Source of the DNA: Micromonospora aurantiaca ATCC 27029
Lineage (GTDB): Bacteria > Actinomycetota > Actinomycetes > Mycobacteriales > Micromonosporaceae
Direction: 5' to 3'
Length of the DNA: 64,000 bases
Assembly (NCBI RefSeq): GCF_000145235.1
Contig: NC_014391.1
Span: 4,038,001-4,102,000 of the forward strand
In this document: one piece after another, positions 23,821-25,833 of the stretch
Layout: each line of letters begins with the position of its first letter
Position numbering within the stretch: the stretch's first letter is position 1
Program-made: the position numbers and the translations under genes
The notes under the pieces: model-generated
What the model saw: only the letters and a program-made list of their open reading frames with translations
Told to the model about the DNA's origin: nothing
Databases searched by the model: none

Positions 23821-24085
23821 GCCGCTCCGGCTGTCACTCGGTGAACTCGCAGAAGGACAGCACCCTGTCGAACCGCCGGGCGGCGAGGTCGTCGTGGCGG
23901 ATCAGGAACCGCGCGTTGACGTACTCCTCGTCCGGTACGCCGAACTGGGCCAGTGGCACCCACTCGCGCATCACCCGCTGCTCCTCCTCGTACAGAGCCA
24001 CCATCTGCTCCTGGCGGGGTAGCGACCTCGCCTGCCGCTCCCGCTCCATCATGATCACCTCGGGCGGGTCCTGCGCCGAGATGGT

Positions 24086-24260
24086 TTGACATCCTCTCCG
24101 CCCTAAGGGACGGAGATTCCCTCCACGCTGCGCGTGGAACACGCGGCGTCCGGGTGGGTTCCCGCTTCGTTGCGCGCCGCCGGGACGAGCCCCGGTCTTA
24201 CGTGCGCTCCACGGGCGTTGAAGTCCGCCTGCCCGGCGGCCTTGACGTTCTTCGCGGCGT
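24086..24260 (-). ncRNA. Predicted omega (reRNA) guide RNA overlapping the 3' end of tnpB
   Basis: In active TnpB elements the guide RNA scaffold comes from the tnpB 3' end plus the right end, and the guide is the flank just past the element. Here the scaffold would end at 24086 with the hairpin at about 24095-24114 and the terminal TCAA, and the guide would begin ACCATCTCGGCGCAGG in the broken host gene. The 5' limit is a guess. No transcript evidence exists. Confidence 0.4.
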
Positions 24261-25335
24261 TCACGTCCCGGTCGTGGGCTGCCCCGCAGGGGCAGTCCCA
24301 CGCTCGGACGTTGAGCGCCATCTTCTCGTTGATCCGGCCACAGTCGGAGCACATGCGGGTGGACGGGAAGAACCGATCCACCCGGCCGAAGGTGCGTCCG
24401 TACCGGGCGGCCTTGTACTCCATCATGGCGGTGAAGCTGGCCCAGCCCGCGTCGTGCACGGACTTCGCGAGCCGCGTCCGGCCGAGACCGACGACGCACA
24501 GGTCCTCGACGTACACCGCTTGGTTCTCGCGGATGATCGCCGTGGACAGCTTGTGCTGCCAGTCCCGCCGCATGTCGGCCACCCGGGCGTGCGCCCGTGC
24601 GACCTTGACGACGGCCTTCTTGCGGTTGGCCGAGCCCTTCTGCTTGCGGGACAGGTCGTGTTGCAACCGCTTGAGCTTGCGCGCGGCCCGGCGCAGGAAC
24701 GTCGGCGCCGCCACCTTCGTGCCGTCCGAGAGCACCGCGAAGTGGGTCAGGCCCAGGTCGATCCCGACCTCGGAGTCGACCGGCGGTAACGCCTCGTCCT
24801 CGCCCGTCTGCACGACGAACGACGCGAAGTACCGTCCGGCCGCATCCCGGATGATCGCCACCGATGACGGGTCTGAGGGCAGCGTCCGGGACCAGCGGAC
24901 TGCGAGGTCGCCGATCTTCGGCAACCGCAGCCGGTCGTTGTCGAGGACCTTGAACCGGGAGTTCTTCGTGAAGCGGATGGCCTGCCGGTTGTCCTTGCGG
25001 GAGCGGAACCGGGGAGGTGCGACCTTGCGGCCCTTGCGCTTGCCCGTGATCGAGTTGAAGAAGTTGCGGTACGCGGTGTTCAGGTCCGCCAGTGCCTGCT
25101 GCAACACCACGGTGGAAACCTCTCCCAGCCACGCGCGTTCCGGCGTCGCCTTCGCCTCGGTGATCAGACGCCGGGACAGCTCCCCGTCGGAGATGTACTT
25201 CTCCCCCGCCTCCCGGGCCTGCTGACGCAGGCGCAGCCCGTCGTTGAACACAACCCGCGCGCACCCGAACGCCCGCGCCAGCTCGATCTGCTGGCCAGGC
25301 GTCGGGTACACGCGGTAGTTGTACCGGAGCTGCAC
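24103..25335 (-). CDS. tnpB: TnpB RNA-guided endonuclease
   Basis: A 410-residue TnpB from GTG at 25333-25335, where the family's usual N-terminus ('QLRYNYRVYPTPGQQIELA') begins. The RuvC triad is complete: D193 in 'VGIDLGLTHFA', E277 in 'VYVEDL' and D357 in 'AHDRDVNAAKN'. A zinc ribbon sits between, with C329, C332, C348 and C350. The N-terminal HTH/wedge region and the basic linker around 213-245 are intact, so it looks functional. Such proteins cut DNA matching the element's guide RNA beside a transposon-adjacent motif and favour element retention. The gene's start lies 25 bases from a divergent Phd-like gene. Confidence 0.9.
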   Translation of the reverse strand: MQLRYNYRVYPTPGQQIELARAFGCARVVFNDGLRLRQQAREAGEKYISDGELSRRLITEAKATPERAWLGEVSTVVLQQALADLNTAYRNFFNSITGKRKGRKVAPPRFRSRKDNRQAIRFTKNSRFKVLDNDRLRLPKIGDLAVRWSRTLPSDPSSVAIIRDAAGRYFASFVVQTGEDEALPPVDSEVGIDLGLTHFAVLSDGTKVAAPTFLRRAARKLKRLQHDLSRKQKGSANRKKAVVKVARAHARVADMRRDWQHKLSTAIIRENQAVYVEDLCVVGLGRTRLAKSVHDAGWASFTAMMEYKAARYGRTFGRVDRFFPSTRMCSDCGRINEKMALNVRAWDCPCGAAHDRDVNAAKNVKAAGQADFNARGAHVRPGLVPAARNEAGTHPDAACSTRSVEGISVP

Positions 25336-25343
25336 ACACACAA

Positions 25344-25351
25344 GTGTACAC
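25344..25351. promoter_or_regulatory. Phd/YefM-type operator GTGTACAC between tnpB and the antitoxin-like gene
   Basis: The perfect 8-base palindrome GTGTACAC contains the TGTACA hexamer known as the core of YefM-family operators. It lies 8 bases before the tnpB GTG and 9 bases before the antitoxin ATG, in a 25-base divergent gap. A protein bound here would block initiation or read-out of both genes. A second copy of part of it, TTGTGT, lies next to it. The site is seen; its use by the adjacent protein is inferred. Confidence 0.55.
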
Positions 25352-25360
25352 AAGGTTACG

Positions 25361-25546
25361 ATGGCGACTATGAGTGACACCCGCGAAAATGAGATCAGCG
25401 TCCGCGAGCTGCGCAAGACGCTCGCCGGAGCGCTCAACGGCGTCGCCGTCTACGGCAAGACCCTTTACGTGACCAACCACGGACGCCGGATCGCTGCCAT
25501 CGTGCCGGTCCCCGTGGCCGAGCAGAACGAGCGGGCGCGAGGTTAA
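25361..25546 (+). CDS. Solo Phd/YefM-family antitoxin-like protein inside the IS element
   Basis: A 61-residue protein from ATG at 25361, with AAGG five bases upstream; a second ATG at 25370 is possible. 'ENEISVRELRKTLAGALNGVAVYGKTLYVTNHGRRIAAIVPV' is the Phd/YefM DNA-binding fold: an N-terminal strand-helix that recognises DNA, then 'VTNHGRRIAAIVP'. The C-terminal toxin-wrapping tail is very short, and no toxin gene follows; the left end of the element comes within 80 bases. It is transcribed divergently from tnpB. The likely role is a repressor of tnpB and itself rather than an antitoxin, which is an inference from context. Confidence 0.78.
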   Translation: MATMSDTRENEISVRELRKTLAGALNGVAVYGKTLYVTNHGRRIAAIVPVPVAEQNERARG

Positions 25547-25589
25547 GGCACTGCTCGGGCCTTGGCGGCCCTCCCAGCGCGGGCCTTCC

Positions 25590-25605
25590 CCGGCCTGAAG
25601 GCCGG
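25590..25605. repeat. Left-end subterminal hairpin of the IS element
   Basis: CCGGCC-TGAA-GGCCGG is a perfect 6-bp stem-loop 19 bases inside the element's left end. IS200/IS605 elements use such imperfect or perfect hairpins at each end for recognition of single-stranded DNA by the transposase. Confidence 0.6.
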
Positions 25606-25833
25606 AGCACTGGCCCGCACTTCGGTAGCCGCCGATGAAGACGTCCTCCGGCAGCCACGACTGCCGCTCCGGCCAGAGCTGCTCGGCCAGCGCACTCATT
25701 GAGGTGCGGCATGTCGCGCAGCAGCCGGATCTGGGTGGCGCTGAGCCACTCCTCCGAGCGGTCCAGCCAGTCCGGCAGGTCCGCCTGGACGGCGGCGTAC
25801 ATCTCGTGCTCGGGGGCGAGGAACGGCTCCAGG

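Follow-up and report, generated by a model that had tools for sequence, protein, structure and literature searches.

Elements of the IS200/IS605 type carry divergent tnpA and tnpB genes, tnpA being absent from those of the IS1341 type, and how transposase-less tnpB genes are controlled and kept up is an open question. Among antitoxins of the Phd/YefM type, known from the Phd-Doc and YefM-YoeB operons, the operators of YefM and Axe have TGTACA cores 12 bp apart that overlap the promoter, according to the available parts of two reports (PMC7730913, PMC4803016). A TnpB-related gene has also been tied to transcription control in the case of TldR, RNA-guided repressors derived from TnpB (available part of PMC13418256). 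The element described here bears on this question. It lies in a stretch of 64,000 nucleotides of Micromonospora aurantiaca ATCC 27029 (contig NC_014391.1, positions 4,038,001 to 4,102,000), referred to as the window, and contains tnpB and, divergent to it, a gene for a short Phd protein. Comparison of its sequence with those of related loci makes it probable that a stand-alone Phd/YefM-type repressor of tnpB and of itself has come to occupy the place of tnpA in an IS200/IS605-type element.

A short Phd protein divergent to TnpB

The Phd protein of the element was matched by PF02604 with 18.7 bits, under the cut-off of 29.8 and over profile positions 2-43 of 74, and by TIGR01552 with 18.2 bits, under the cut-off of 20.8. 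Its predicted structure (mean predicted local distance difference test score, pLDDT, 87.8) resembles Phd truncated to residue 57, the Phd DNA-binding domain, operator-bound Phd and YefM. No Foldseek match passed an E value of 0.001 (best, 8e-3 at a probability of 1.00), and a second structure comparison gave Z scores as high as 8.5, while unrelated CBS-domain rows did not exceed 4.2. The predicted fold of the window protein is, from this model, the N-terminal DNA-binding fold of Phd/YefM. A phmmer search of the Protein Data Bank returned mostly designed repeat proteins, ranked over two weak antitoxin rows; in the plasmid collection the window Phd had no match at E ≤ 1e-3, and a type 3 Phd query (the Phd proteins are grouped below as types 1, 1b, 2 and 3) gave one weak Streptomyces match.

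In the initial annotation the protein had 61 residues, starting at 25361. An ATG at 25370, which yields 58 residues, suits a leaderless promoter better, so that the divergent layout proposed there is retained while the distance between the two starts becomes 34 bases rather than 25. The accompanying description of tnpB as intact, with RuvC residues D193/E277/D357 and a zinc ribbon, agrees with the profile match (table 1) and with the presence of all three residues and of the four zinc-ribbon cysteines (the residue alignment numbers them two higher, its query having had two extra N-terminal residues). The window TnpB can thus be assigned, by profile and by these residues, to the RNA-guided nuclease TnpB. 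A nuclease-dead, TldR-like protein was considered and is ruled out by the active-site residues. Among phd-linked TnpB proteins, the RuvC D, E and D are kept in 34/34, 34/34 and 33/34 cases, respectively, the single miss being truncated by a contig end. The search of the window genome, made with one query, gave one tnpB match and no second tnpB.

The C-terminal toxin-binding part of Phd is judged to be absent, given the 58 residues of the protein against 89 in a toxin-paired Phd encoded elsewhere in this genome and the confinement of the Pfam match to the first part of the profile. The element Phd would therefore correspond to a Phd antitoxin reduced to its DNA-binding half, with no toxin-binding half. 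Neither of the marks of a type II antitoxin, a C-terminal toxin-binding part and an adjoining toxin gene, is found; that the gene lacks a toxin had been noted before, and indeed none adjoins phd and, from the open reading frames (ORFs), no further gene, toxin included, fits inside the element besides tnpB and phd. These features bear on the proposal that Phd is one half of a two-part addiction module, restraining TnpB or a host toxin by direct contact. Members of the Phd/YefM fold are mostly antitoxins, and the window genome does contain a ParE-family protein beside another Phd (L002). However, without a toxin gene or a toxin-binding part, and with nothing to suggest binding to TnpB, such a module, with TnpB as the toxin in the version of the initial annotation, is very improbable. 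The toxin partner elsewhere on the genome, which had been named as a possible objection, is thus real, but it belongs to a different, longer Phd, about 40% identical to that of the element.

The phd gene appears, by a rough measure, to be under purifying selection, the mean uncorrected ratio of non-synonymous to synonymous differences (pN/pS) being 0.48, 0.17, 0.45 and 0.42 for types 1, 1b, 2 and 3, with 0.30, 0.32, 0.31 and 0.37 for the partner tnpB genes.

Exchange of tnpA for phd

Four Phd queries were run against 300 genomes of Micromonosporaceae, the family of the window (twice), 394 genomes of its class and 220 of another family (twice); one of the 300-genome searches was cut at E ≤ 1e-11, with 10 of its 35 rows entering the census. 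The result was 47 unique Phd places, window included. In 37 of them phd is divergent to tnpB or to what remains of it, in six there is no such arrangement (loci L010, L036, L138, L144, L165, L166), and in four the contig breaks off on the side where tnpB would lie (L007, L152, L154, L157). Other tnpB elements with this pairing, the check proposed initially, are therefore at hand. Chance neighbourhood was also considered, and is ruled out by the recurrence of the pairing across many genomes and insertion sites. Some of the 37 have a damaged tnpB (e.g. L035/L167, L037/L161, L149, L150, L160), and L145 has a C-terminal piece only. The TnpB to which the type 3 Phd of L153 is divergent has only some 31% identity with that of the window, so that the pairing reaches beyond one TnpB clade. 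When the lower rows were fetched (L011-L033), L014 and L020 had tnpB or a piece of it in another arrangement, and the rest gave no tnpB match.

The complementary census started from TnpB alone and took the best 80 of 189 tnpB relatives, with upstream DNA shortened in three (L059, L063, L098). The DNA upstream of tnpB contains tnpA or part of it in 51 loci (125 or more of 138 residues being kept in 32) and a Phd gene or remnant in another 14; in no locus do the two occur together, and the remaining 15 lack both. L107, with a Phd-like stretch within a longer ORF some 500 bases from tnpB, was scored among these 15. The 14 comprise Phd genes in L064, L069, L076, L087, L095, L106, L121, L128 and L132, decayed copies in L109-L111 and L131, and a remnant in L080. 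The C-terminus of phd (...AEQNERARG) resembles that of tnpA (...YIEQQNRPG), and both are followed by the same GTTAAGGCACTGCTCGG, which suggests that the exchange was a swap that retained the left end of the element.

In a tree of 103 TnpB sequences, phd and tnpA are interleaved, with at least 18 changes between both states. From the well-supported branches alone, the tnpA label must have changed seven times, a figure that includes losses leading to loci with neither gene, and the type 3 and type 1b labels four times each. Since many forks of this tree have weak support (of 100 inner branches, 24 are starred and 47 open), exchanges cannot be counted with certainty, and tnpA may have returned in some of them. 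From the tree and the census, an antitoxin-type repressor appears to have taken the tnpA slot more than once, with different Phd types in several TnpB branches.

One query, the TnpA of a relative, found no tnpA in the window genome; as a control, it recovered the genome from which it was taken and another genome with tnpA. The same query had matches, some of them fragments only, in 15 of 19 genomes holding Phd places and none in genomes G149, G078, G230 and G791. A transposase is therefore available in trans in most, not all, of the Phd-holding genomes.

Operator arrays and predicted promoters

The TGTACA palindrome noted initially between the two starts is present, and the operator is conserved at related loci. 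Within the window the larger palindrome GTGTACAC occurs once, with 0.34 copies expected from base composition, and TGTACA occurs four times in 64 kb, with 2.4 expected, the chance of finding it in a given 34-base gap being approximately 0.001. The window palindrome alone would thus be modest evidence, and the weight rests on the related loci.

Among these, the comparison covers the gaps, 37 of phd and 36 of tnpA loci, in which the junction could be read and whose sequences are distinct. At least two GTAC are found in 23/37 phd gaps (21/37 without the 9-base lengthening of type 1 gaps in the direction of the likely start) versus 0/36 tnpA gaps, and at least one in 31/37 versus 9/36. The totals are 69 GTAC in the phd set against about 5 expected by shuffling, and 9 in the tnpA set against 2.95. 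With both sets treated alike, the mean in the first 25 nt of the gap is 1.57 for phd and 0.28 for tnpA. The intervals between GTAC are regular, being 10, 20 or 30 bp in 20/20 cases for types 1 and 1b, and 9, 18 or 27 bp in 17/18 for types 2 and 3; among the 266 GTAC of the window there are no neighbours at 9 or 10 bp.

Candidate −10 boxes were defined as TANNNT at 4-9 nt upstream of the starts, in the style of leaderless genes. GTAC lies on the predicted tnpB −10 box in 28/37 phd versus 8/36 tnpA loci, and on the predicted regulator −10 box in 27/37 versus 4/36. When only boxes starting with TAC are considered, the preceding base is G in 28/28 phd versus 8/13 tnpA loci on the tnpB side, and in 27/29 versus 4/15 on the regulator side. 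Where a type 3 gap measures 24 bp, a single GTAC is part of both predicted −10 boxes. Thus, palindromes of the TGTACA type that overlap the promoter, as in Phd/YefM operators, are found here, the promoters being predicted. As a separate observation, the tnpA-bearing loci with GTAC at the tnpB −10 box are L056, L060, L062, L065, L071, L073, L075 and L125, where it may have been left by a former phd or have arisen by chance within the −10 box.

Similar arrays precede host Phd genes. Twenty of the 25 other Phd loci encode 81-98 residues and five are shorter (62, 56, 56 and 48 residues, and an early-stop frame); a toxin neighbour was checked by profile at L002 alone. At least two GTAC are found upstream in 23/25. 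In the 20 genes of antitoxin length the promoter GTAC intervals are 9 bp in 35/37 cases, a register other than the 12-bp one published for YefM. In three short Phd loci with intervals (L010, L019, L023) the spacing is 10 bp. L019 and L023, with 56-residue Phd genes, GTAC sites 10 bp apart and no tnpB match in their 3-kb loci, may represent additional solo Phds of the short kind, or what is left of such elements.

Two other explanations have to be weighed against these data. The Phd could be a passenger that represses itself alone, having filled the slot on loss of tnpA with no effect on the nuclease. Since host Phd genes bear the same arrays, phd could have brought its own operator; several copies (L080, L109-L111, L131) also appear decayed. 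What makes the passenger explanation unlikely is the frequency of GTAC on the tnpB −10 box at phd as compared with tnpA loci, the single GTAC shared by both boxes in the 24-bp gaps of type 3 and the filling of the same slot by different Phd types in several TnpB branches. Alternatively, the short Phd might work mainly in trans, on host toxin-antitoxin operators with the same GTAC arrays, as the prevalence of these arrays and the 9-bp register shared by types 2 and 3 might suggest. This proposal is scarcely credible, because the window Phd is of type 1, with relatives in the 10-bp register, and because this leaves the presence of GTAC on the tnpB −10 box unexplained.

Several observations also weigh against repression of tnpB by a dedicated Phd. 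The Pfam match to Phd is below cut-off, four phd-linked tnpB frames contain a stop (L121, L128, L151, L163), and the decayed phd copies count here as well. Between phd and tnpB of the window there is a single perfect GTAC accompanied by a near-site, and most relatives have more. The tnpA gaps, too, exceed the shuffled expectation, and part of the GTAC signal arises because the −10 box itself forces it; as a 4-mer, TGTA/TACA discriminates best between phd and tnpA gaps, with GTAC second. Six of the 37 phd gaps are without GTAC (L037, L110, L131, L164, L168, L169): L037 has a tnpB fragment and L110 and L131 a decayed phd, yet in L164, L168 and L169 both frames are open, the phd without its usual start codon. 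Furthermore, the loci share kinship, so that p-values exaggerate their independence.

The features of the element are collected in table 1. Relatives whose flanks differ have its right end, ...GGATGTCAA, in common, and on the tnpB strand GCTAC precedes its left end as in many relatives (both by a loose pattern, among the matches listed). When joined, the flanks (23830-24085 and 25625-25802) form an unbroken open frame, so the element, 1,539 bp long, splits a gene. A search of 150 other genomes found the site uninterrupted in three of them (G287, G892 and G271; loci L171, L173, L174), with the junction spanned over 96-99 of 99 query bases, and a match in a fourth over query bases 7-45 only, the junction still being spanned. 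The element is thus a real insertion with exact bounds, identical to those first annotated. As in IS200/IS605 elements, the ends are defined and the empty site shows no target duplication; a Y1 transposase TnpA of its own is absent from inside the element. No Rfam match was obtained in the window at gathering scores. The right end is probably the 3' part of the guide RNA scaffold, and the guide would come from the flanking DNA below 24086, as in IS605 biology.

Table 1. Features of the element, in positions of the window.
Feature	Position	Strand	Basis
Whole IS200/IS605-type element without tnpA; left end 25624, right end 24086	24086..25624	-	Shared ends and uninterrupted site
tnpB, RNA-guided nuclease TnpB, 410 aa, GTG start	24103..25335	-	NF040570, 339 bits versus cut-off 100
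phd, short Phd/YefM-type DNA-binding protein without toxin-binding tail, 58 aa	25370..25546	+	Profiles and predicted fold
Right end, strong hairpins, probable 3' part of guide RNA scaffold	24086..24260	-	Computed fold
Predicted tnpB −10 box TACACT, 7 nt from start codon, within GTGTACAC	25343..25348	-	Prediction
Predicted phd −10 box TACGAT, 7 nt from start codon, overlaps near-site	25357..25362	+	Prediction
Candidate operator palindrome GTGTACAC	25344..25351	.	Sequence
Near-site, TTAC for GTAC, 10 bp from GTGTACAC	25356-25359	.	Sequence

Proposed regulation and comparison with known systems

In the mechanism proposed for a dedicated repressor, Phd dimers would bind the GTAC-centred palindromes between the divergent genes. 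Because the sites overlap the −10 boxes of both predicted leaderless-type promoters, bound Phd would cover both, so that phd would be autoregulated and tnpB held low. As the active-site residues are kept, TnpB could become active once repression is lost, be it through transfer to a new cell or through degradation of Phd. With a guide supplied by the flank below 24086, the empty site would presumably be its natural target, and in a genome without a tnpA match TnpB-driven retention or homing may keep the element going. We infer the promoters, dimerisation, binding, repression and any benefit of low TnpB to the element or host from the nucleotide and protein sequences. Of the two possibilities put forward initially, the dedicated repressor is favoured by the recurrence of the pairing, by the conserved operator on both predicted −10 boxes and by its likeness to host Phd operators, and the addiction module is not.

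A further extension, possible although rather doubtful, is that the exchange of tnpA for Phd produced a regulated homing unit. Phd would silence TnpB in an established host and, in a Phd-free recipient, tnpB would be briefly unrepressed, as in zygotic induction; TnpB would then cut the empty allele of the recipient through the flank-supplied guide, and repair would copy the element without a transposase.

P1 Phd uses a site of the GTGTACAC type; a literature search with Phd, operator and GTGTACAC gave no paper. The Phd-tnpB pairing was not found described in the literature searched, including the available parts of PMC12737573 and PMC9956272 and with the main TnpB classification outside its scope, so that its novelty reaches as far as that literature and a prior mention is possible.

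The element shares with the IS200/IS605 and IS1341-type elements its ends, its TnpB clade and the place and direction of the second gene. The relationship is close, as L101, with a piece of tnpA, has a TnpB 93% identical to that of the window over 316 columns, and L102, with a whole tnpA, one 91% identical over the matched part. The window element differs from them in having a Phd gene and GTAC operators in the tnpA slot, in a genome without a tnpA match. With the Phd-Doc and YefM-YoeB operons it shares the N-terminal fold of Phd, here an antitoxin DNA-binding domain apparently used without a toxin; unlike in those operons, phd has neither toxin nor toxin-binding tail and is divergent to a nuclease gene, and the sites of its relatives are 9 or 10 bp apart rather than 12 bp as in the available accounts of YefM and Axe. 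Finally, in contrast to TldR, the window TnpB has its active-site residues intact and would be under regulation rather than exert it. The putative repressor sites on both predicted promoters make it possible to test directly whether a dedicated repressor controls an RNA-guided nuclease.
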